From positions 2,299,501 through 2,363,500 of the forward strand of contig NZ_SZWE01000001.1 of the NCBI RefSeq assembly GCF_009669325.1: DNA of 64,000 nt, written 5' to 3'. The notes below the pieces were generated by a model. The model was not told the origin of the DNA and ran no database searches. It was given only the letters and a program-made list of their open reading frames with translations. Origin of the DNA: Roseovarius bejariae (GTDB taxonomy: Bacteria; Pseudomonadota; Alphaproteobacteria; Rhodobacterales; Rhodobacteraceae). Shown here one piece after another: positions 44,545-59,532 of the stretch. The translations under genes and the position numbers were made by a program. Numbering within the stretch: position 1 is the stretch's first letter; every line of letters begins with the position of its first letter.

Positions 44545-46182
44545 TTACCCCTTGCGCTGGTCGGGGTGGATGTAATCGGCAAACTGCTGGCGCAGGGTGA
44601 GTTTGGAGATTTTGCCGGTGGCGGTGAGGGGCAATTCATCGGTGAAGAGAATGTCATCGGGGAGCTGCCACTTGGCGAAATGCTTGCCCATGTGGGCGTG
44701 GATGTCGTCGAGCGTGGGGCGGGTATCGCCCTCGGGAACGACCACCAGAACCGGGCGTTCATCCCATTTGGGGTGGGGCACGGCGATGATGGCGCAGGTT
44801 TTGACCAAGGGGTGCGAGACGGCGGCGTTTTCAAGGTCGATCGAACTGATCCATTCGCCGCCCGATTTCACCAAATCCTTGGCGCGGTCGCGGATGATGA
44901 GTTGCCCTTCGGGTGTGAGGGAGGCGACATCGCCGGTGCCGAACCAGCCCTCGGCGTCCATAGCCGCCTTCGTGGCCTCGGGATTGTTGTAGTAACCGGT
45001 GATCACGGTATTGCCGCGTACGTAAAGTTCGCCCACCGCTTCGCCATCGTGGGGCATGCACGTGCCATCGTCATCGACCAGTTTGAAATCGAGGCCGAAT
45101 TTGCGGCGGCCCGCGCTGGTCTTGATTTGCATTTGCTCGGAGAGTGGCGCGTTTTGCAGCCGGGGCGGGACAACGCCGTGGGTGCCAATCGGGCTCATTT
45201 CCGTCATCCCCCATGCTTGGGACACGGTGACGCCGAAGCCCTCGTAGGCCTCGGTCATGCTGGCCGGGGCGGCGGAGCCGCCGACCACCAGATCGCGGAA
45301 GGCATGGGGCGCGCGGGTTTTGGCCTCAATTTCGGCCAGAAGCCCGGCCCAGACGGTGGGCACGCCCCATGCGGAGTAAACATCGTGGTCCTCCATCAAT
45401 TGCCAGAGGCTTGCGCCATCGAGGTGACGGCCCGGCATGACCATCGTCATGCCTGTCAGCGGCGCGTTATAGGGTAGGCCCCATGCGTTGACGTGGAACA
45501 TTGGCACCACGGGCATCACCCGTTTGCCCGCCGCGAAGCTGGAAGTTTGGGCCAATGGCACGGTGAGCGCGTGCAGGACGGTGGAGCGGTGCGAATAGAG
45601 CGCGCCCTTGGGGTGGCCTGTGGTGCCGGAGGTGTAGCACAGGCCCGAGGCGGTCTCCTCGGGGAAATCGGGCCAGTGGTAGGTTGTGGGCTGCCCCTCC
45701 AGCAGCTCTTCGTAGCAGAGTGCATCGAGGGTGGTGTCGGGCATATGTGCCCGGTCGCTCAGGATGATGTAGCGCAGGCCTTTGGGGGCCTCATCGGCCA
45801 CGGCCTCGGCCACGGGTACGAGGCTTGGATCAATGCACAGAAGGCTGTCGCCCGCGTGGTTGAGGATATAGGCCATCTGTTCGGGAGAAAGGCGGGGGTT
45901 GACCGTGTGGCAGACCGCGCCGATTCCCGCGAGGGCATAGTAAAGCTCCACATGGCGGTGGCCATTCCATGCCAGCGTCGCCACGCGGTCGCCCATCAGC
46001 ACGCCAAGCGCGTCGAGGGCGTGGGCCAGTTGCGCGGTGCGGTCAAGGATTTCGGGATAAGTGGCGTGGTGAATATCACCCTCGTCCCGGACCGATATGA
46101 TGCCTTGATCGGTGAAGGCCTCGGCGGCGTGGCTGAGGATGTCGATGATCCTCAGCGGGCGATGCTGCATCATGCCTTTCAT
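44545..46182 (-). CDS. Acyl-CoA synthetase, medium-chain / DmdB-like
   Basis: 545 residues. Adenylate-forming ligase with YTSGTTGHPKGALYSH, AWGMTEMSPIGT, WFGTGDVASL, RDRAKDLVKSGGEWIS and catalytic lysine in PLTATGKISKLTLR. Sequence style and length match the group containing medium-chain fatty acyl-CoA ligases and methylmercaptopropionate-CoA ligase DmdB of roseobacters; I cannot separate these. Start ATG 46182 with GGGAGGAG about ten bases upstream. First gene of an operon with the APH-like kinase and thioesterase. Confidence 0.8.
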   Translation of the reverse strand: MKGMMQHRPLRIIDILSHAAEAFTDQGIISVRDEGDIHHATYPEILDRTAQLAHALDALGVLMGDRVATLAWNGHRHVELYYALAGIGAVCHTVNPRLSPEQMAYILNHAGDSLLCIDPSLVPVAEAVADEAPKGLRYIILSDRAHMPDTTLDALCYEELLEGQPTTYHWPDFPEETASGLCYTSGTTGHPKGALYSHRSTVLHALTVPLAQTSSFAAGKRVMPVVPMFHVNAWGLPYNAPLTGMTMVMPGRHLDGASLWQLMEDHDVYSAWGVPTVWAGLLAEIEAKTRAPHAFRDLVVGGSAAPASMTEAYEGFGVTVSQAWGMTEMSPIGTHGVVPPRLQNAPLSEQMQIKTSAGRRKFGLDFKLVDDDGTCMPHDGEAVGELYVRGNTVITGYYNNPEATKAAMDAEGWFGTGDVASLTPEGQLIIRDRAKDLVKSGGEWISSIDLENAAVSHPLVKTCAIIAVPHPKWDERPVLVVVPEGDTRPTLDDIHAHMGKHFAKWQLPDDILFTDELPLTATGKISKLTLRQQFADYIHPDQRKG

Positions 46183-46344
46183 CTGCTGTGTCTCCTCCCT
46201 GTCGCGCGGTTCGGTGACGGTGGCATGAAAGCCGGACGGGATCAATTGGCCTGCATGAAACGACGCGGAGGCGTCGGTTTCCGGTTGGTCGGTGTGAAGT
46301 GGTTGTGGTGTGCTGGGGGAAACGCGACGTGCGGGGAGGGCGAA

Positions 46345-47073
46345 ATGCAGGAATTCGAGGGCAAGCGCGCCTTGGTAACAGGCGCGGCGGGTGGCATCGG
46401 GCGGGCCATCGTGGCGGCATTGCAGGCACGGGGGGCCAAGGTGGCCGGGGCCGATCTGGCCGAGAGCGCCGGGGATGTCAGCCTGTGTGGGGATTTGACG
46501 GAGGCCGCGTTTTGTGATGGCTTGCCGGAGCAGGCAGCGCAGGCCCTGGGCGGTCTGGATATCGTGGTGAACAACGCGGGGATCATTACACGGGGCAAGA
46601 TCACCGAGGCCACGGACGAGGAGTATGCCCGAACCATGGCGATCAACGTCGAGGCGCCGTTTCGCTTGTGCCGGGCGACCATTCCGATCATGGAACGCGC
46701 CGGTGGCGGGGCGATTGTCAACGTTGCCTCGTGTTGGGGTGTGCATCCGGGGCCTAATCATCCGCTTTACGTGATGTCGAAATCTGCGGTGGCGTCGCTG
46801 ACGCAGTGCCTTGGCATGGATCATGCGCATCAGGGTATCCGTGTGAATGCGGTTTGCCCCAACGAGGTGAACACCCCTATGTTGCGCACAGGGTTTGCGG
46901 CGCGCGGGTTCGACCCGGACAAGGCGGTCGAGGCGCTTGACGCCTCGGTCCCGTTGGGGCGGATTGCGGAGCCGGAGGATATCGCCGATGTGGTGGTGTT
47001 CCTTGCCTCGGATCAGGCACGGTATCTGTGCGGGGCCCTGATTGAAGCGAATGGCGGAAAGGCAGTTCAATGA
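46345..47073 (+). CDS. Short-chain dehydrogenase/reductase
   Basis: 242 residues, classical SDR. Cofactor loop TGAAGGIGRA at residues 12-21, NNAG near 82, catalytic serine in NVASCWG, Tyr-x3-Lys in YVMSK, and a C-terminal FLASDQARYLCGALIEANGG. Ligand and direction unknown. Divergent from the acyl-CoA ligase operon across a 162-bp gap, coupled by overlap to a second SDR. Confidence 0.88.
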   Translation: MQEFEGKRALVTGAAGGIGRAIVAALQARGAKVAGADLAESAGDVSLCGDLTEAAFCDGLPEQAAQALGGLDIVVNNAGIITRGKITEATDEEYARTMAINVEAPFRLCRATIPIMERAGGGAIVNVASCWGVHPGPNHPLYVMSKSAVASLTQCLGMDHAHQGIRVNAVCPNEVNTPMLRTGFAARGFDPDKAVEALDASVPLGRIAEPEDIADVVVFLASDQARYLCGALIEANGGKAVQ

Positions 47074-47804
47074 GCGGATTTGACGGCAAGGTGGCGCTGG
47101 TCACCGGCGGGCGCAGCGGTATGGGTGCGGCCACGGCGGCGGCTTTGGCGGCCGGTGGTGCGCGGGTTTTTACGGCGCAGCGCGGCGAGGAGCCAGTGCA
47201 TGAGGGGATCGTGGCGGATTTCATGGACCCGGGGTGCCCCGAGCGGATTGTCGGTGAGGTGATCAATCGGGCCGGGCGGCTGGACATGCTGGTAAATTGT
47301 GCCGGGTTGATGCGCGAGGGCACCGTCGAGGAAACAAGCGTGGCGGATTGGGCGGCGACGCTTCAGGTGAACCTGACGGCGCCGTTCATGATGATCCGTC
47401 ACGCCATGCCGCACCTGAAGCAGGGGGGCGGGGCGATCGTGAATATCGGCTCGATCGAGGGGCTGGGGGCGAACCCGCGCCACCCGGCCTATTGCGCCAG
47501 CAAGGGCGGTCTTCATGCGCTGACGCGGGCCGTGGCGGTGGATCATGGCCATGACGGGGTGCGCTGCAATGCTGTTGCCCCGGGGTGGATCGATACCGAG
47601 TTGAACGATGCCTTCATCGAAAGCCTTGGCGACCCGGCGGCGTTTCGCGCCAGGATCGGAGGTATCCATCCGGCGGGCCGGACGGGCCGCGCCGAGGAGG
47701 TGGCGGCCCTGGTCGTCTGGCTGTTGTCGGATGCGGCGGGGTTTGTCACCGGGCAGGTCTGGACCGTGGATGGCGGGCGGATGGCGCAGCTGAGCCTGCC
47801 GTGA
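47070..47804 (+). CDS. Short-chain dehydrogenase/reductase
   Basis: 244 residues, classical SDR. Cofactor loop TGGRSGMGAA at 12-21, VNCAG near 80 (variant of NNAG), serine in NIGSIEG, catalytic YCASK, and TGQVWTVDGGR at the end. Start overlaps the preceding SDR by four bases. Paired SDRs next to CoA-ester genes may oxidise successive hydroxyl groups; not assignable further. Confidence 0.88.
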   Translation: MSGFDGKVALVTGGRSGMGAATAAALAAGGARVFTAQRGEEPVHEGIVADFMDPGCPERIVGEVINRAGRLDMLVNCAGLMREGTVEETSVADWAATLQVNLTAPFMMIRHAMPHLKQGGGAIVNIGSIEGLGANPRHPAYCASKGGLHALTRAVAVDHGHDGVRCNAVAPGWIDTELNDAFIESLGDPAAFRARIGGIHPAGRTGRAEEVAALVVWLLSDAAGFVTGQVWTVDGGRMAQLSLP

Positions 47805-51056: not shown

Positions 51057-51797
51057 ATGAGTAAGCCGTTCTTGATCCTGCAGTTGCGCCCCGAGGCCGA
51101 GGCCGCCGACGATGAATTCGCGGCGATCCTGCGCAAGGGGGGGCTTGCGGAGGGGCAAGTGCGGCGGGTGCGTTTGGACCAGGAGGCTTTGCCCGCTGAT
51201 TTGAATCTGGACGCTCTGGCCGGTGTCATCGTGGGCGGCGGGCCGGGCTGTGTGAGCGATGCACCCGACGACAAGAGCCCGGTCGAGGCCAGGATCGAGG
51301 CCGAGGTCTTGTCGATCATGCCGGAGGTGACGGGGCGCGACCTGCCGTTCCTGGGGTGCTGCTATGGGATCGGGATTCTGGGCAAGCATCTGGAGGGCGA
51401 TGTCAGCAAGGCGCGTTATGGCGAGCCGGTGGGCACCTCGGCCTGTGCGGTGACGGAGGCGGGGCGGGACGACCCGCTGCTGGAGGGGGTGCCGGAGCGG
51501 TTCGATGCCTTCGTGGGTCACAAGGAGGCGCTTCAGGCCTTGCCCGAGGGTTGCGCGCATCTGGTGGCCTCAACGGCCTGTCCGTTTCAGATGGTTCGGC
51601 ATGGGCGGAATGTCTATGCCACGCAGTTTCACCCCGAGGCGGACGCGGCAGGGTTCGAGACCCGCATCAATATCTACAAGCACAAGGGCTATTTCCCGCC
51701 GGAAACGGCCAGTGACCTGATTGCCATGTGCCGGGCGGCGGATGTGACCGCACCCGAGGTGATCTTGCGGAATTTCGTCAAGCGGTACGGTGGCTAG
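51057..51797 (+). CDS. Class I glutamine amidotransferase-like protein
   Basis: 246 residues. Nucleophile elbow G100-C101-C102-Y103-G104 (GxCxG with C102) and C-terminal QFHPEAD with the His-Glu pair. GuaA-type glutaminase domain without a synthetase partner, as in enzymes that hydrolyse gamma-glutamyl compounds or act as stand-alone amidotransferases (YebA/GMP synthase-like). Oxyanion region GGGPGCVSDAP near 60-70. Ends overlapping by four bases the lacI-type gene read from the other strand. Confidence 0.82.
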   Translation: MSKPFLILQLRPEAEAADDEFAAILRKGGLAEGQVRRVRLDQEALPADLNLDALAGVIVGGGPGCVSDAPDDKSPVEARIEAEVLSIMPEVTGRDLPFLGCCYGIGILGKHLEGDVSKARYGEPVGTSACAVTEAGRDDPLLEGVPERFDAFVGHKEALQALPEGCAHLVASTACPFQMVRHGRNVYATQFHPEADAAGFETRINIYKHKGYFPPETASDLIAMCRAADVTAPEVILRNFVKRYGG

Positions 51798-52810
51798 ACG
51801 GCCCGACAGGTTGCGCGAATCTTGAGTTCGGGCGCGACCACGGCGTTTTGTGGTGCCGGATCGGTGCCGGTGATGGAGGCCACGATCATGTCCGCCGCGC
51901 GTTCGCCGATTTGCGGGGCGGGGATGCGGACGGTGGTAAGGGGGGGCTCGAAATCCTTGGAGCCTTTGAAGTCGCCGATGCCAGTGACGGTCACGTCATC
52001 GGGAACGCGCAGGCCCGCGCGGGCGAGGGCGTGCATCGTGCCCCATGCCAGCACGTCATTGGCGCAGAGGATGGCGCTGGGCGGTGGGCCGGTGGCGATC
52101 AGGGCCTGCACGGCCTGCTTGGCGTCGGCGACGCTGTAGAGGGTTTCAAGGCAGCGCTCGGGGGGGATGTCGCGGCCCGCCTCGTGCAGGGCGTCCATGA
52201 TCCCGGCAAAGCGGCGCGCGGCGCGGTCGTTGCCGTCGAGCGGGGGAAAGACGGCGGCGAGATCGCGGTGCCCGAGCTGCACGACATGATCCCCGACCAG
52301 CCGCCCGGCAAGATAGTTGTCGGACCCGACGCAGGGGATCGGGGCGTCGTCGGCCACGTTCCACAGCAAGATTGCCGGAATATCCTGCTCTTCCAGAAGG
52401 GCGTATGTGTCTTTCGAGTGTTCGACGCCGATGAGGGCCACGCCATCGACCCGGTGTTCCAGCATCTTGCGCGTCAGGGCGTATTCGTGTTCGAGGCTGT
52501 AGCCGTGCGAGGCGAGCAGGATGGTGAAGCCCTGTTTTTCGACGGCGTCGGAAAAGCTCTGGACCAGTTCGGCGAAAATCGTGTGGTCGATGGTGGGCAC
52601 GATCAGGCCGATGGTGCCGCTGCGGATGCCGTGGATGGTTTGCGCGGCGCGGTTGCGGATATAGCCCAGACGCCGCACTGCGGCGTCGATCTTCTTGCGA
52701 GTCGCCGCCTTGACCAGATCGGGGTGATTGAAGGCGCGCGAGACCGTCGAGGGGGACACGCGAGCGGCCTTTGCAACGGCGATGATGTCGGCTTTTTTAT
52801 CTTTTCTCAC
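51794..52810 (-). CDS. LacI-family transcriptional regulator of the tct/sau cluster
   Basis: 338 residues. N-terminal helix-turn-helix IIAVAKAARVSPSTVSRAF with hinge helix region RNRAAQTIHGIRSG, then a periplasmic-binding-protein-like effector domain ending PPLTTVRIPAPQIGERAADM. The start codon is GTG (52810). Divergent from tctA across 220 bp that hold several inverted repeats; likely local repressor released by the transported compound or its metabolite. Confidence 0.88.
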   Translation of the reverse strand: MRKDKKADIIAVAKAARVSPSTVSRAFNHPDLVKAATRKKIDAAVRRLGYIRNRAAQTIHGIRSGTIGLIVPTIDHTIFAELVQSFSDAVEKQGFTILLASHGYSLEHEYALTRKMLEHRVDGVALIGVEHSKDTYALLEEQDIPAILLWNVADDAPIPCVGSDNYLAGRLVGDHVVQLGHRDLAAVFPPLDGNDRAARRFAGIMDALHEAGRDIPPERCLETLYSVADAKQAVQALIATGPPPSAILCANDVLAWGTMHALARAGLRVPDDVTVTGIGDFKGSKDFEPPLTTVRIPAPQIGERAADMIVASITGTDPAPQNAVVAPELKIRATCRAV

Positions 52811-52842
52811 AGTCGTTTAACCCCCGTTCTGACGGTCAAAAA

Positions 52843-52868
52843 TGAAAACATTTGCAATACTGTTTTCA
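52843..52868. promoter_or_regulatory. Inverted repeat near the LacI-type gene start
   Basis: TGAAAACA (52843-52850) and TGTTTTCA (52861-52868) form a perfect 8-bp dyad with a 10-bp spacer, 33 bp upstream of the regulator's start. A candidate autoregulatory operator or site for another factor. Confidence 0.55.
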
Positions 52869-52893
52869 TGGCTTACCGTTAAAAGTCAACTAA

Positions 52894-53004
52894 AGCGTTT
52901 CGCGAAAAACTGGATCACAGCGTTTCGCGAAATGCCGTGCAAGACACGGATCATGGTGTGCGTTTCGTTTTTTGTCTGAGACCTCAGGTCAAAGTCGAAA
53001 CGCT
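52894..53004. promoter_or_regulatory. Multiple LacI-type operators upstream of tctA
   Basis: AGCGTTTCGCGAAA occurs identically at 52894-52907 and 52919-52932, both containing the palindrome TTTCGCGAAA with centres 25 bp apart. Further copies of the core GCGTTTCG lie at 52960-52967 and, inverted, at 52997-53004, 27 bp before the tctA start. LacI-family proteins bind such CG-centred dyads as dimers and loop between them. Confidence 0.65.
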
Positions 53005-53030
53005 TTGGGAGGAAAAGGGAGGCCGCCCAA

Positions 53031-54560
53031 GTGGAATTCATTGGCTACATGGGAGACGTCTTTACGCCCATCAACTTCGCGTTGTTGATGATTGGCACGA
53101 TTGGCGGGTTGATCCTTGGGGCAACGCCGGGGTTGTCGCCGACGATGGCGGTGGCGTTGTTGATCCCCTTCACGTTCAAACTGGATGCGACGCAGGGCCT
53201 GATCCTTTTGGGGGCGGCCTATACCTCGACCGTGGCAGGGGGCGCGGTGAGTGCCATCCTGCTCAAGATTCCCGGGGCGCCGGCGAATATCGCCACCACG
53301 CTGGACGGTCATACGCTGGCCCGTAAGGGACAGGGGGCGAAAGCGTTGCAACTGTCGTTCCTGGCCTCGTTGGTGGGGGGCGTTTTCGGTGTCATGCTGT
53401 TGATTTTCCTGACGCCGCTTTTGGCGCAATGGGCCTTGGCCTTTGGGCCGTCGCATCTGTTCTGGCTGGCGATTCTGGGGGTGACGGTGATTGGGTCGCT
53501 GGATTCCGCTTCGGTGGTGAAGGGGCTGTTATCGGGCTGTATCGGCCTGTGGCTGGCGACCATCGGGTTTGACGACATCATGGGCGCGCAGAGGTTCATC
53601 TTTCACGATGCCGTGGCGGGCGGGATCAACGTGATCCCGGCACTGATCGGGTTGTTTGCCATTCCGCAGGTGATCACCATGTTCGCCAATGGCCGCAAGT
53701 ATCTGGAGGCCGAGGTCTTGAGTGTGGAGCGCCACCCCATCCGCGAGGCCATTGCCGAGGTGGTGCGGCGGTCGCGCGCGCTGACCATCGGGACGGCGGT
53801 GGGCTCGTTCATCGGGCTTATCCCCGGTGTGGGCGGTCAGATTGCCGGGCTGGTGGCCTATGACCAATCCCGCAAGATGAGCCCGGAGCGCCAGAAATTC
53901 GGCACCGGCCACAGCGAGGGGATCATCGCCGCCGAGAGCGCCAATAACGCCATGGTCGGGCCCAGCCTTGTGCCGCTTCTGACCCTGTCGATCCCCGGAT
54001 CGCCCACGGCGGCGGTGCTGTTGGGTGGGCTGCTGATCCATGGGATTTTTCCGGGCAGCGATTTGTTCGACAATCACCCGCAGGTGGCCTGGACCTTTAT
54101 CAATTCGATGCTGATCGGGCAGGTCATGATGTGCATTTTCGGTCTTTACGTGGCCGGGTTGGCCGCCCGTGTTGCGCAGGTGCCCAATGCGGTGATGGCG
54201 GCGGTGGTGCTGGGGCTGGCGGTGTTCGGCAGCTATTCGGTGCAACATTCGATGGGCGATGTCTATGTCATGGCCGCGCTGGGCACGGGAATGTATTTCC
54301 TTGAGCGCTTCGGCTTTTCCGCCGCGCCCTTGGTTCTGGGCCTGATCCTTGGGCCGATTGCCGAAGCGAATTTCGTGCAAGGCGCGATGATCGCCAATGC
54401 CACGTCGAACCTTGGCACCTATTTCCTGACCGGGCCGCTGAACCTGACGCTGATCGCGATTGTCGTGGCCTCGATCGGGTACTCGGTGTGGATGGAGCTT
54501 CGGCACCGTCGCTACACCACCAAGGACGAGGCCGTGGCCAAAGAGGAGGCATTGTCATGA
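53031..54560 (+). CDS. tctA: Tripartite tricarboxylate transporter large membrane subunit TctA
   Basis: 509 residues with about twelve membrane segments. Family signatures GATPGLSPTMAVALLIPFTF near residue 31 and GLIPGVGGQIAGLVAYDQSRK near 265, plus SIPGSPTAAVLLGGL. The start is a GTG (53031, MEFIGYMGDVF) with GGGAGG upstream. TctA forms the channel of a secondary, binding-protein-dependent importer. Its stop overlaps the tctB start. Confidence 0.92.
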   Translation: MEFIGYMGDVFTPINFALLMIGTIGGLILGATPGLSPTMAVALLIPFTFKLDATQGLILLGAAYTSTVAGGAVSAILLKIPGAPANIATTLDGHTLARKGQGAKALQLSFLASLVGGVFGVMLLIFLTPLLAQWALAFGPSHLFWLAILGVTVIGSLDSASVVKGLLSGCIGLWLATIGFDDIMGAQRFIFHDAVAGGINVIPALIGLFAIPQVITMFANGRKYLEAEVLSVERHPIREAIAEVVRRSRALTIGTAVGSFIGLIPGVGGQIAGLVAYDQSRKMSPERQKFGTGHSEGIIAAESANNAMVGPSLVPLLTLSIPGSPTAAVLLGGLLIHGIFPGSDLFDNHPQVAWTFINSMLIGQVMMCIFGLYVAGLAARVAQVPNAVMAAVVLGLAVFGSYSVQHSMGDVYVMAALGTGMYFLERFGFSAAPLVLGLILGPIAEANFVQGAMIANATSNLGTYFLTGPLNLTLIAIVVASIGYSVWMELRHRRYTTKDEAVAKEEALS

Positions 54561-55021
54561 CCGAGTTTTGGCGCACACAACATATTCTGGCCAGCGGGAT
54601 TGTCGCGGCTGTCGGCGTGGGTGTGACTTATGTCAGCTATACGGCGGAACCGGCGCAGGCCTTCCTGTTCCCGCGGATGATCTCGTCGGTTTTCGTGGTG
54701 CTGGCGCTCTGGACCTTTGGCAAGGCCGTTATCGGCAAGACGAAGGTCGGCAATGGGTTGAACCGGACGGCGGTGATCAATATCGCGCCGGGGTTGATCG
54801 TGGCCTTGATCTATATCTTCTGGGCGGCCAAGGGCCTTGGGTTCTATACCGCCTCGACCATCGCCTTTTTCATTCTTTTGACGCTTTACGATCCATCGCC
54901 GCACAACGAGGCGCGCACCTGGATCAAGCGTGTTGTCATCACCGCCGGGTTCCTGGCGGTCATGTACGGTCTCTTCGCGATGTTGCTGAACGTGTTCACA
55001 CCGCGAGAGATTTTCTTCTGA
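54557..55021 (+). CDS. tctB: Tripartite tricarboxylate transporter small membrane subunit TctB
   Basis: 154 residues with four membrane segments. Contains the TctB-typical AFLFPRMISSVFVVLAL near residue 34 and a C-terminal GLFAMLLNVFTPREIFF. Accessory subunit of the TTT transporter. The ATG overlaps the tctA TGA, and tctC follows after 41 bp. Confidence 0.9.
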   Translation: MTEFWRTQHILASGIVAAVGVGVTYVSYTAEPAQAFLFPRMISSVFVVLALWTFGKAVIGKTKVGNGLNRTAVINIAPGLIVALIYIFWAAKGLGFYTASTIAFFILLTLYDPSPHNEARTWIKRVVITAGFLAVMYGLFAMLLNVFTPREIFF

Positions 55022-55062
55022 ACCGTAACAACGGCAGAGCCAACCCAATGGGAGGAGAACCA

Positions 55063-56031
55063 ATGAAGAAACTGATTGCTGCAGCGTCTATGGCGCTGAT
55101 GTCCCTGACTGGCGCCGCATCGGCGGATGGTCACGGGAACTACCCCGAACGTCCGCTGATGATGATGGTCAGCTATGGTGCGGGCGGGGCCACCGATTTC
55201 CAGGCCCGGATCGTGACCATGACCGCGGCCAACGAGGATGCACTTGGCATGCCGATTGCCATCATCAACAAGCCGGGCGCCGGTGGGCGCGTTGGTTGGA
55301 ACTGGTTTGCGACGCAGGCCGAGGCGGATGGGTATACGCTGGGTGCCTACAACATCCCGCATTTCATCGCCCAGTCCATCGAGGGCGGGGTGAGCTATTC
55401 CGCCGACAGCTTCGAGCCGATCGCCAACTGGGGCGCCGACCCGGCGGTTTTCGTGGTGGCGGCGGACAGCCCGTTCAATTCGATGGAAGACGTGGTGAAC
55501 TATGCCAAGGAAAACCCCGGCAAGCTGACGTTTTCGGGGGCGGGGCTTTTCGTGGGGCACCATATCGCGGCCTTGCAGCTTGAAAAGGCCGCCGGTGTGA
55601 AACTGGCCTATATCCCCAACAACAAGGGCGGCGCCGGCGCAATGAAGGCCGTGATCGCCGGTGAAGTGCTGGGCGGGGTGAACAACCTGTCGGATGCCTT
55701 CCGTGCGCAGCAGGCGGGCAACGTCAAGATCCTTGGGGTCTTTGACCTTGAGCGCAGTGATTTCCTGCCCGAGGTGCCGACCATGGCCGAGCAGGGTTTC
55801 GATATCGACAATTCCTCGGTCAATTTCCGGGGCGTGATGGTGCCCAAGGGCACGCCGCAGCCGATCATCGACAAGCTGGCGGAAACCGTGCCTGAGATGT
55901 TCAAGAATGGCCGTGTTGCCAAGAAGATGAAGGCCGGTGGCAGCCCGATGCACGTGATGACGCGTGACGAGGTGCTTGAGATGTGGGCGGCCCGCGAGGA
56001 GACCCTGCAAGAGCTTCTGTCCGGACTGTAA
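55063..56031 (+). CDS. tctC: Tripartite tricarboxylate transporter periplasmic binding protein TctC
   Basis: 322 residues; signal peptide cut after residue 21 or so (ALMSLTGAASA). Bug-type binding protein: YPERPLMMMVSYGAGGATD at the mature start forms the ligand loop for carboxylates, followed by NKPGAGGRVGWNWFATQAEADGY, shown here in part, and GAPT-like PEVPTMAEQGFD. The bound compound is predicted to be sulfoacetate from its neighbours. GGAGGAG ribosome site. Confidence 0.9.
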   Translation: MKKLIAAASMALMSLTGAASADGHGNYPERPLMMMVSYGAGGATDFQARIVTMTAANEDALGMPIAIINKPGAGGRVGWNWFATQAEADGYTLGAYNIPHFIAQSIEGGVSYSADSFEPIANWGADPAVFVVAADSPFNSMEDVVNYAKENPGKLTFSGAGLFVGHHIAALQLEKAAGVKLAYIPNNKGGAGAMKAVIAGEVLGGVNNLSDAFRAQQAGNVKILGVFDLERSDFLPEVPTMAEQGFDIDNSSVNFRGVMVPKGTPQPIIDKLAETVPEMFKNGRVAKKMKAGGSPMHVMTRDEVLEMWAAREETLQELLSGL

Positions 56032-56050
56032 TTCGCAATTCGCAACCTGC

Positions 56051-56074
56051 CGGGGCGCGTATGCGCGCGCCCCG
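56051..56074 (+). terminator. Intercistronic hairpin after tctC
   Basis: Perfect 9-bp stem CGGGGCGCG (56051-56059) / CGCGCCCCG (56066-56074) with loop TATGCG and no T-run. Likely a partial terminator or 3' stabiliser raising binding-protein levels over sauST. Confidence 0.55.
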
Positions 56075-56099
56075 GTCCCCAACAAAGTGAGATCAAGAG

Positions 56100-57503
56100 A
56101 TGAACGCGCCAAGCCCCCTTGCCCAACTGGAAGATGTGATTGCCCGGTCGCGTGCTGCGCAGGCCCGGTACGAGGCGGGCGGCAGTCAGGCGCGCTATGA
56201 CCGGGCAGCGCAGGCCGTGGCATGGGCCATCATGGAGCCCGCGCGCAACCGGGAACTGGCCGAGCTGGCGGTGAAGACCACCGGGCTTGGCAATGTGGAT
56301 GACAAGATTACCAAGAACCATCGCAAGACGCTGGGCCTGATGCGGGACATCAAGGAGGCGGTGACCTACGGGGTGATCTCGGACGATCCCGAGACCGGCA
56401 TCACCGAGATCGCGCGGCCCATGGGGGTGGTGGGGGCGATCGTGCCCTCGACCAACCCGGCGGCGACCCCGGCGAACAACATCATCAACGCCTTGAAATG
56501 CGGCAACTCGATCGTGGTGGCCCCCTCGCCCAAGGGTGTGGCCAGTTGCGAGGTGCTGCTTGGGTATATCCATGCGGAATTTGCCAAGATCGGCGAAGAC
56601 CCGGATCTGGTGCAGATGGTGCCGGCGCCGGGATCGAAGGAAAAGACACAGGCCCTGATGGAAGGCTGCGACAAGATCGTGTGCACCGGCAGTCAGAACA
56701 ACGTGCACCGGGCGCAGACGGCGGGCACCCCGGCGGTGGCCGTGGGGGCGGGCAATGTGACGGTGATCGTCGATGAGACCGCCGATCTGGCGGCTGCGGC
56801 CGAGAAAATTCGTGCGTCCAAGTGTTTTGACAATGCGACGTCCTGTTCCTCGGAGAATTCGGTTGTGGTGGTGGACGCGGTCTATGACGCCTTTGTCGAG
56901 GCCATGGCCGCCGCAGGGGGTGCCGTGGTGGATGACGAGGCCGCCGTGATCGTGGCGCTTTGGCCGGATGGGCATCTGAACCGCGAGGTCATTGCGCAGG
57001 ATGCCGACAAGATGATCGCGGCGCTGGGGCTGGAGGGGAAAGTGCCCGACGGGACGGATTATATCGCTGTGCCGACCAGTGGCATTGGCCCCGATCACCC
57101 CTTGAGCGGTGAGAAGCTGAGCCGGGTTTTGGCGCTTTACCGGGCGTCGGACTTTGACGACGCGGTCAAGACCGCACGTGCCATCCAGTTGCATCAGGGC
57201 GCGGGCCATTCCGTGGGCCTGCACAGTACGGATACGGAGCGACCGATGACGCTGGCAAGGGCGATTCCCACCAGCCGGGTGATCGTCAATCAAGCCCACA
57301 CGTTTGCGACGGGCGGGTCGTTTACCAACGGTATGCCGTTTTCGTTGTCGATGGGCTGTGGCTCGTGGGGGGGGAATGCCACGCATGAGAACCTGCATTG
57401 GCGGCATTTCCTGCAATCCACACGGATCGTGCGGGAAATCCCGCCACGCGAGCCGAGCCTTGAGGAGATTTTCGCGAGTTACTGGGACGAGGCCGGGAAA
57501 TGA
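56100..57503 (+). CDS. sauS: CoA-acylating aldehyde dehydrogenase, probable sulfoacetaldehyde dehydrogenase SauS
   Basis: 467 residues, aldehyde dehydrogenase of the acylating (EutE/AdhE-like) group. Catalytic cysteine C249 in NATSCSSENSV, matching the ICASEQ context of acylating enzymes rather than the usual ALDH motif, and cofactor loop CTGSQNNVHRA near 195-205. SauS reduces sulfoacetyl-CoA to sulfoacetaldehyde with release of CoA. The next gene is an AMP-forming ligase overlapping by four bases, the SauS-SauT order known from sulfoacetate degraders. A different C2/C3 acyl-CoA is possible; xsc is not in the window. Confidence 0.7.
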   Translation: MNAPSPLAQLEDVIARSRAAQARYEAGGSQARYDRAAQAVAWAIMEPARNRELAELAVKTTGLGNVDDKITKNHRKTLGLMRDIKEAVTYGVISDDPETGITEIARPMGVVGAIVPSTNPAATPANNIINALKCGNSIVVAPSPKGVASCEVLLGYIHAEFAKIGEDPDLVQMVPAPGSKEKTQALMEGCDKIVCTGSQNNVHRAQTAGTPAVAVGAGNVTVIVDETADLAAAAEKIRASKCFDNATSCSSENSVVVVDAVYDAFVEAMAAAGGAVVDDEAAVIVALWPDGHLNREVIAQDADKMIAALGLEGKVPDGTDYIAVPTSGIGPDHPLSGEKLSRVLALYRASDFDDAVKTARAIQLHQGAGHSVGLHSTDTERPMTLARAIPTSRVIVNQAHTFATGGSFTNGMPFSLSMGCGSWGGNATHENLHWRHFLQSTRIVREIPPREPSLEEIFASYWDEAGK

Positions 57504-58993
57504 AATTGCATCAAGAGACACCGCCCGAGGGCACCATTCGTGATTGGCTGGACATGCGTGCCGGGGCCGGTGGCGTGGCAGTCGTGTTTCCCGAGACCGA
57601 CGATACCCTGACGTGGGCAGTGCTGCGCGATGGGGCCATGGAGTTTGCCCGGACGCTGACGGCGCGGGGCGTGGCCAAGGGGGAAAGCGTGGCAATCATC
57701 GCGCCCAACAGTCGCGAGGCGCTATGTGCCTTTTATGGGGCCACCTATGGCGGGTTCCGCGCGGTGATGATCAACCTTGCCGCCGGGCGCGATGCCATCG
57801 CCTATGCCTTGGAGCATTCCGAGGCGCGGTTTGCCTATGTGCATCCAGATTGCACCGATTTGTTCGCGGCGGCAGCGGGGGAGGGGATGACCTCGCTGCC
57901 GCTTGGGGGGGGCGAGGAGGCCGATTTGCACGATGTCGTGCCCGGCGATCACGCGTTGCTCATGTATACCTCGGGGACCACGGGGCGGCCCAAGGGGGTG
58001 GTGCACAGCCACGCCAGCCTTCTGGCAGGGGGCTGGACGACGGCGGTGGCGCATTGTCTGACGCCGGATGACCGGGGCTTTTGCGTCTTGCCGATCTACC
58101 ACATCAACGGGCTGTGCGTGACCGTGATGGCCAGCCTTGTTTCAGGCGGATCACTGGCGATGACGGGGCGGTTTTCGGCCTCGCAGTTCTGGGCACAGGC
58201 AGGGGTGGCCGAGGTCACGTGGTTTTCGGTCGTGCCGACGATCATTTCGCACCTTTTGCACGGCAAGACAGAGCCGGACGAGGGGTGTCGCGGGCGGTTG
58301 CGGTTCGGGCGCTCGGCCTCGTCCGCCTTGGCGGTGGAAACGCAACAGGCCTTCGAGACGCGGTTCGGGGTGCCGATCATCGAGACGATGGGCCTGACCG
58401 AGACAGCGGCGCAAATCCTGTCGAACCCGCTGCCGCCTGCGCCACGCAAGATCGGCTCGCCCGGTGTCGCCTTTGGCTGCGAGGTGCAGATTCAGGATGG
58501 CGAGGGGCGCGAGGTGCCCCGCGGTGACGAAGGCGAAATCGTGGTGCGCGGGCCAAACGTGATGCTGGAATACCTCAAGAACCCGGAGGCCACCGAGGCG
58601 ACGTTTCGTGCCGGATGGTTGCGCACCGGGGATTTGGCGCGGATGGACGACGAGGGCTATGTTTTCGTCACCGGGCGCCTGAAGGAGCTGATTATCAAGG
58701 GCGGCGAAAACATCGCCCCGCGCGAGGTGGACGAGGCCCTTTATACCCATCCGGACGTGGTGGAAGCGGCGGCCTTTGCACGGGCCTGTACGAAGTACGG
58801 CGAAACGGTGGAGGCCGCAGTGCGGGTCTGTGAAGGGTCCAGGCTTGAGCCTGCGCAACTGATCGAGATTTGCCGTGATCGGCTGGGCCCGTTCAAATCG
58901 CCGGACATGATCCATTTCATGGAGGAACTGCCGAAAGGGCCATCGGGAAAGATTCAGCGATTGAAGCTGGCCGATATCCTGCCGTCTGCCTGA
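57500..58993 (+). CDS. sauT: AMP-forming CoA ligase, probable sulfoacetate-CoA ligase SauT
   Basis: 497 residues. Motifs LMYTSGTTGRPKGVVHSH near residue 153, ETMGLTETAAQIL, WLRTGDLARMDDEGYVFVTGR and catalytic lysine in LPKGPSGKIQRLKL. Shorter than fatty acyl-CoA ligases and close in length to malonate/sulfoacetate-type ligases. Its ATG overlaps the sauS stop. Together they would convert sulfoacetate to sulfoacetyl-CoA and then sulfoacetaldehyde. Ends two bases before the convergent stress-protein gene. Confidence 0.68.
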   Translation: MKLHQETPPEGTIRDWLDMRAGAGGVAVVFPETDDTLTWAVLRDGAMEFARTLTARGVAKGESVAIIAPNSREALCAFYGATYGGFRAVMINLAAGRDAIAYALEHSEARFAYVHPDCTDLFAAAAGEGMTSLPLGGGEEADLHDVVPGDHALLMYTSGTTGRPKGVVHSHASLLAGGWTTAVAHCLTPDDRGFCVLPIYHINGLCVTVMASLVSGGSLAMTGRFSASQFWAQAGVAEVTWFSVVPTIISHLLHGKTEPDEGCRGRLRFGRSASSALAVETQQAFETRFGVPIIETMGLTETAAQILSNPLPPAPRKIGSPGVAFGCEVQIQDGEGREVPRGDEGEIVVRGPNVMLEYLKNPEATEATFRAGWLRTGDLARMDDEGYVFVTGRLKELIIKGGENIAPREVDEALYTHPDVVEAAAFARACTKYGETVEAAVRVCEGSRLEPAQLIEICRDRLGPFKSPDMIHFMEELPKGPSGKIQRLKLADILPSA

Positions 58994-58995
58994 AT

Positions 58996-59451
58996 TTATG
59001 TAATGGCTTCGAGCCGTTCCTTGGACAGATCGCCCGGTACGATCGTGACCGGGATCGGCAGATCGCCCGCGTTACGGGACAGTTGCGTGACCAATGGGCC
59101 GGGGCCTTTCTTGCCGGTGCCCGCGCCCAGCACCAGAACGCCGACCTCGGGGTCGTCCTGAACCTGTGCGATGATCTCGGACACGGGTTCACCTTCGCGG
59201 ATCACCAGCTCGGGGTCGACGCCCTGCTTGTCGCGCATCCATTTGGCGAAGACCTCGAAATGGGCGTGGATGCGTTCGCGCGCTTCTTCGCGCATGATGT
59301 CGCCGACGCCGATCCAGTGATTGAATTCCTCGGGGGGAATCACCGCCAGAACTTCGACACCGGCCTGCGTGTGTGCGGCGCGCATCGCGGCGAACCGCAT
59401 GGCGTTGAGGCATTCGCGGCTGTCATCAAGGACCACCATAAATTTGCGCAT
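58996..59451 (-). CDS. Universal stress protein family
   Basis: 151 residues from the ATG at 59451. USP fold with MRKFMVVLDDSRECLNAMRFA at the start (first 20 residues or so) and the nucleotide-binding end GVLVLGAGTGKKGPGPL...SRNAGDLPIPVTIV, close to the ATP-binding GxxGxG-S pattern. Role in stress tolerance general; partner unknown. GGGAG site nine bases upstream. Confidence 0.85.
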   Translation of the reverse strand: MRKFMVVLDDSRECLNAMRFAAMRAAHTQAGVEVLAVIPPEEFNHWIGVGDIMREEARERIHAHFEVFAKWMRDKQGVDPELVIREGEPVSEIIAQVQDDPEVGVLVLGAGTGKKGPGPLVTQLSRNAGDLPIPVTIVPGDLSKERLEAIT

Positions 59452-59532
59452 GATCACATTCTCCCTTGCGCGCATCATGGGGGCAAACGGCGTGCCGCGC
59501 AATACGCTGAAATTCCCGTGATGGGGATGGTG

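Follow-up and report, generated by a model that had tools for sequence, protein, structure and literature searches.

The window analyzed is a 64,000 nt stretch of the Roseovarius bejariae genome (assembly GCF_009669325.1, contig NZ_SZWE01000001.1, positions 2,299,501–2,363,500 of the forward strand). Positions 51794–58993 of the window hold six closely packed genes that have the appearance of a cassette for the uptake and activation of sulfoacetate. A gene encoding a LacI-family transcription regulator, the candidate local regulator, is on the minus strand (51794–52810; Pfam PF00356 and PF00532/PF13377 over cut-off) and is divergent from five plus-strand genes in the order tctA-tctB-tctC-sauS-sauT. 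The first three of these encode a tripartite tricarboxylate transporter (TTT), i.e. the large permease TctA (53031–54560, GTG start; PF01970, 440 bits), the small permease TctB (54557–55021; PF07331) and the periplasmic binding protein TctC (55063–56031; PF03401). They are followed by sauS (56100–57503), which is predicted to encode a CoA-acylating sulfoacetaldehyde dehydrogenase, and by a sauT-like gene (57500–58993; PF00501 and PF13193) for an AMP-forming acyl-CoA ligase, a candidate sulfoacetate-CoA ligase. No intergenic gap between tctA and sauT exceeds 70 bases, and four-base ATGA overlaps are present at tctA/tctB and at sauS/sauT. All six proteins have Pfam matches over cut-off (LacI, TctA, TctB, TctC, Aldedh and AMP-binding). 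An earlier note on this DNA had described the six packed genes, a NATSC motif in the dehydrogenase and the overlap of dehydrogenase and ligase genes; the coordinates, the translation and the Pfam matches agree with it on each point.

The assignment of the dehydrogenase as SauS is supported by a curated model and by a tree. The curated SauS model NF047625 of NCBIfam gives the sequence 665.9 bits (cut-off 600), and none of the other 10 of its 11 matches in this genome is over that cut-off. A 38-row tree places it within a 26-row clade (support 100/100) together with sequences from Cupriavidus necator, other Burkholderiales and other SauS-SauT loci. SauS sequences linked to SauCD, i.e. from loci with an ADP-forming ligase, are outside of this clade, as are other dehydrogenases and the two long rows that were flagged. 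The C. necator reference is locus L064 of strain SHC 2-3, not H16, and its SauS is 56.7% identical to that of the cassette.

A protein in locus L154 (genome G422 of the family sample described below) reaches 511 bits on the SauS model, which passes 1e-150 but is under the cut-off, and it groups with dehydrogenases located beside genes for an iron-containing alcohol dehydrogenase and TRAP transporters. In L180 and L181 the acylating dehydrogenase is of another kind and its gene neighbours encode an iron-containing alcohol dehydrogenase, GntR and TRAP proteins; in L180 a TauE/SafE exporter gene is also nearby. Dehydrogenases of this type (L180, L181, L154) could be misfiled as SauS.

The ligase gene is directly downstream of sauS. 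Its product shares 44.5% identity with the ligase encoded next to sauS at C. necator L064, versus 30%–33% with three further ligases from the loci. The earlier note had considered that the two enzymes might group with a different acyl-CoA family, but SauS is in the C. necator clade and the ligase is closer to the L064 ligase than to the three others. The ligase tree is a quick one, with 35 of 142 rows and long outgroup branches. The protein is accordingly termed a candidate SauT, with sulfoacetate as its putative substrate. Another AMP-forming ligase, with about 30% identity to SauT over the part compared, is encoded within window positions 44545–47804, beside two open reading frames that resemble short-chain dehydrogenases by eye.

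Close relatives of the TTT binding protein were sought in a family sample of 248 genomes, one per genus, in which, as in all the genome searches, only the best few candidates per genome were scored (at most nine for TctC). At 1e-60, TctC has matches in 29 of the 248 genomes, one match each. All 29 genomes carry SauS, and in the 28 other than that of the window the TctC match is 57–125 nt from the sauS match. Close TctC was found only beside sauS (29/29), and thus this clade of binding proteins appears to be tied to the cassette. By its gene neighbourhood, the substrate carried by the transporter would be sulfoacetate.

Other sau-linked TTT systems belong to other lineages. A TctA tree was made with 71 of 95 rows, after nearly identical sequences of the window type had been reduced to eight. 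In it the sau-linked TctA sequences occur in several well supported groups, and the sau-linked label needs four changes as compared with a shuffled mean of 23.7. The deep forks are weak, however, and starred branches force only two changes, so the number of times that a TTT was recruited is not claimed here. The genome has only one other TTT at the family cut-off (locus L018, G000:C1:2655000-2670000). Next to it is a gene for an acetolactate synthase-type enzyme that uses thiamine diphosphate. A match to a SorA-like sulfite dehydrogenase and a gene resembling that for HMG-CoA reductase, each with a score below cut-off, are also within 15 kb.

The gap between the LacI gene and tctA contains a 28-bp dyad, ATGAAAACATTTGCAATACTGTTTTCAT, at positions 52842–52869, which is a candidate operator for the LacI-type regulator. 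A sequence within four mismatches of the dyad consensus is present in 33 of 33 loci that bear the regulator (32 if L021 and L169, apparently a single record, are counted once), and 21 of the 28 columns are invariant. In 21 of 21 loci without the regulator there is no match within seven mismatches. Seventeen of these loci were judged by tblastn and four by annotation alone (L177, L178, L180 and L182); two hold the other dehydrogenase (L154 and L180) and two are cut by contig ends (L148 and L170). The regulator itself reaches no NCBIfam equivalog cut-off.

Outside the dyad, conservation is limited to a TAnnnT sequence found at exactly the same spacing in all 33 loci, to the single base that immediately precedes TAnnnT and, more weakly, to a GTCAA five bases beyond TAnnnT. 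In the window the TAnnnT element is TACCGT (52874–52879), a candidate −10 box, and TTGCAA (52852–52857), within the dyad and 16 nt upstream, is a candidate −35 box; both are assigned by their place in the aligned element. With TTGCAA inside the dyad and TAnnnT at a fixed spacing, the putative promoter would be covered by the operator, and this points to repression rather than activation. With up to three mismatches allowed, the core pattern of the dyad has a single occurrence in the 3.5-Mb genome.

The same regulator and dyad serve loci that have this TTT, another TTT (L024 and L166) or a transporter of the major facilitator superfamily (MFS; L022 and L023). Retention of the LacI gene and dyad by loci with different transporters suggests that the exchanged transporters share one substrate.

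A 14-bp direct repeat, AGCGTTTCGCGAAA, is found downstream of the dyad as two exact copies 25 bp apart (52894–52907 and 52919–52932). It was considered as an operator and dropped, since it is not among the 12-mers shared by the corresponding gaps of the relatives. Outside of the cassette it has one exact occurrence (L135:5240), a palindrome just past a gene that resembles, by eye, one for cytochrome-c biogenesis.

The genome also encodes the enzymes to which sulfoacetaldehyde would pass. The earlier note had proposed a search for xsc, and the gene is present, together with pta. The xsc gene (G000:C1:2281214-2282947) is 68 kb upstream of the cassette and scores 917.7 bits (cut-off 676.4); pta adjoins it and is also over its cut-off. 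The xsc cluster includes genes for a class III aminotransferase, a HupE/UreJ protein and a regulator of the MocR type, which matches the PdxR model over its cut-off, as well as two taurine-type ABC transporter genes with scores below their cut-offs. Since xsc and pta are in a taurine-type cluster, sulfoacetaldehyde would enter an existing taurine-type route. The single occurrence of the dyad core in the genome means that this cluster has no close copy of the dyad. Beside pta and xsc are molybdopterin, Fe-S and DmsC-like genes, which resemble SoeABC; these reach no NCBIfam equivalog, and the DmsC-like protein passes Pfam.

SauS over the cut-off is found in 39 of the 248 family genomes and in six of 398 genomes in a phylum sample. 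At 1e-180, xsc is present in 157 of the family genomes, i.e. in 36 of the 39 with SauS over the cut-off and in 121 of the 209 others (Fisher p 1.8e-5, kinship uncorrected). G422 is left out of this count, which becomes 36 of 40 if it is included. The neighbourhood analysis by tblastn likewise has 39 loci, those of the 38 other genomes over the SauS cut-off plus that of G422. The full LacI-tctABC-sauST order is found in 24 of these loci and the five-gene core in 26. Some TctA is in the stretch in 36 loci, sauT in 33 and sauCD in two; tblastn with two SauU types as queries detected no such MFS gene in the 39 loci. One locus, L160, has the order LacI-tctABC-sauS-sauT-xsc-pta. Its sauT and xsc matches are 61 nt apart, and this xsc is the only match at 1e-180 in its genome (G567).

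The six-gene order is also found on named plasmids of Tateyamaria, Ruegeria, M382 and Alisedimentitalea. The regulator on one of the four is annotated as a substrate-binding protein and is a LacI type by tblastn; the M382 plasmid seems to be the same record as locus L169. Two Paracoccus plasmids have the order LacI-sauST-MFS with xsc about 5 kb away, and Sulfitobacter alexandrii has LacI-sauST-tctCBA. Several relatives of SauS are located near xsc, sulfite-oxidising genes or TauE. Among the best 80 named loci of the scan, which are mostly from Burkholderiales, a SauU-type MFS gene is present in 46 and TctA is within 5 kb of sauS in 17, and none has a relative of the cassette LacI. The presence of a TTT beside sauST is thus not rare. 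A haloarchaeal plasmid (L182) displays tctCBA and a SauS-like dehydrogenase with a CoA transferase in place of the ligase, possibly a third way of activating the acid.

Both genes that flank the cassette converge on it. A glutamine amidotransferase gene is at 51057–51797 on the plus strand, and an open reading frame with no NCBIfam match is at 58996–59502 on the minus strand. The flanking genes point toward the cassette, and thus the transcription unit most likely ends at position 58993. Between tctC and sauS there is a stem-loop at 56049–56076 with a 12-bp stem and no T run (fold z −3.4). Relatives differ in the sequence of this spacer, but of 30 distinct versions 25 have a folding z below −2. 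The structure may raise the level of tctC mRNA over that of the enzyme genes.

The gene families, the identity of SauS, the downstream genes, the transporter clade tied to sauS and the conserved dyad are features of the sequence itself. From these we infer the substrates of the ligase and the transporter, the inducer, and repression rather than activation. The cassette is very likely an inducible operon for sulfoacetate uptake and activation. TctC would bind sulfoacetate in the periplasm and TctAB would import it. SauT would then convert sulfoacetate to sulfoacetyl-CoA at the expense of ATP, with release of AMP, and SauS would reduce sulfoacetyl-CoA to sulfoacetaldehyde. Xsc and Pta, encoded with the taurine genes 68 kb away, would convert sulfoacetaldehyde to acetyl phosphate and sulfite and then form acetyl-CoA, and the SoeABC-like complex would oxidise the sulfite. 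The LacI-type regulator, bound to the 28-bp dyad, would keep the operon repressed as long as neither sulfoacetate nor its CoA ester is available. A broader proposal has the balance of the evidence somewhat in its favor, namely that the TctC clade is dedicated to sulfoacetate and found solely beside sauS, that one LacI protein and a near-invariant dyad control sulfoacetate use in the family, and that different transporters (this TTT, TTTs of other lineages or an MFS) have replaced one another several times. The sulfoacetate function proposed in the earlier note is supported by the curated model and the tree for SauS, by xsc and pta in the genome and by the xsc-pta pair after sauT in L160.

Several observations weigh against this function. 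In R. bejariae xsc lies apart from the cassette, and of the 39 family loci just two (L158 and L160) have a convincing xsc in the stretch covered, a third match (L136) being 24% identical. At 1e-180 there is no xsc in three of the 39 SauS genomes (G428, G551 and G571), nor in G422. A consensus promoter scan of the LacI-tctA gap found no promoter at the dyad, so the promoter proposed above is drawn from the alignment. The ligase reaches no cut-off among the 25 of 106 NCBIfam families listed, which include no SauT model, and the SauT name is therefore based on identity to L064, synteny and the quick tree. The best solved relatives of the ligase are oxalate-CoA ligases, that of SauS is an acylating succinate-semialdehyde dehydrogenase, and those of TctC include the aspartate and glutamate binders BugD and BugE. 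Such relatives, and the fact that TTT binding proteins have been shown mainly for dicarboxylates, would fit a small dicarboxylate (oxalate, malonate or succinate) that is taken up by the TTT, activated with CoA and reduced to a semialdehyde. This is very unlikely, as the SauS sequence is over the cut-off of its curated model and in one clade with the C. necator enzyme, xsc-pta follows sauT in L160, xsc is enriched in SauS genomes, and xsc, TauE or genes for sulfite oxidation are close to several SauS relatives. A shade less probable again is a related sulfonate, for instance 3-sulfopropionate, processed by the same chemistry with one carbon more. A two-subunit ligase, HpfYZ, accepts 3-sulfopropionate and not sulfoacetate, and 3-sulfopropionate is an intermediate of homotaurine use in Roseovarius nubinhibens according to a thesis cited by the same source (passages of PMC11489063, 2024). 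Xsc acts on sulfoacetaldehyde, however, and is both downstream of sauT in L160 and enriched with SauS, and SauS passes the sulfoacetaldehyde model.

Two other explanations retain sulfoacetate as the substrate of the enzymes. The TTT might carry some other compound while sulfoacetate enters by another route; the transport substrate is assigned from the neighbourhood alone, and some sauST loci have an MFS protein or another TTT. The exclusive placement of close TctC beside sauS, the co-directional arrangement of tctABC and sauST behind a single dyad, and the lack of the two queried SauU types in the 39 family loci make this unlikely, if less so than the dicarboxylate explanation. Alternatively, the enzymes might run in reverse and form sulfoacetate from sulfoacetaldehyde for export. 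The genome does encode a taurine-type pathway that would yield sulfoacetaldehyde, and elsewhere SqwD and the ADP-forming ligase SqwKL make sulfoacetate and ATP (passages of PMC11489063). The cassette, however, has an AMP-forming ligase, a type whose forward reaction costs energy, and TTT systems that depend on a binding protein are generally importers, so that reversal is the least probable of the four.

With sulfoacetate as the likely substrate, the cassette can be compared with known systems. It shares the order sauS then sauT with the SauRSTU system of C. necator, in which sauST is accompanied by the MFS transporter SauU. Locus L064 has the order IclR-sauS-sauT-MFS, whereas the cassette has a TTT in place of the MFS protein, LacI in place of IclR, and a diverged ligase. 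The earlier statement that LacI replaces other regulators holds in comparison with L064. Replacement of SauU by a TTT had been regarded as novel, and this is no longer so. In the available passages of PMC12625764 (2025), sponge symbionts are described with SauS and an AMP-forming SauT adjoining a TTT, and the TTT SauXYZ of Bilophila wadsworthia, found with SauS, is named there as an earlier putative sulfoacetate transporter. The likeness to the sponge symbiont hybrid is by description, the sequences being uncompared, and the main text of that paper makes no mention of LacI, a regulator or an operator. B. wadsworthia (SauSCD and SauXYZ) differs from the cassette in having a two-subunit, ADP-forming ligase in place of SauT, and the SauS of the sampled SauCD-linked loci branches apart, as described above. 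The suggestion that a sulfonate substrate would widen the TTT family is outdated as well, because the passages available of a 2018 review (PMC5812351) assign the TTT SlcHFG of R. nubinhibens and Chromohalobacter salexigens to a sulfonate; its substrate is sulfolactate, as opposed to the sulfoacetate proposed here. The cassette is real and its sulfoacetate name is probably correct; relatives commonly carry it, and systems of its kind have been published.

Regarding regulation, SauR of C. necator responds to sulfoacetate (passages of PMC7057948). No mention of LacI control of a sulfoacetate cassette was found in the open-access literature searched, a body that does not cover the founding C. necator and Bilophila papers. 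A link between sulfoacetate and LacI is not treated in the available passages of PMC7057948, PMC10204090 and PMC10413263, and the main texts of PMC12625764 and of a LacI regulon survey (PMC4052901) contain no term for LacI control of sulfoacetate genes. Within that literature, the 28-bp dyad and the TctC clade tied to sauS look newly described.

Sulfoacetate is released by some taurine-using marine bacteria and by some degraders of sulfosugars, according to passages of PMC12625764 and PMC11489063 respectively. The cassette marks bacteria that could consume it, and the TctC clade and the 28-bp dyad are simple, testable markers. TctC would also offer a clean test of how a family of binding proteins known mainly for dicarboxylates accepts a sulfonate.

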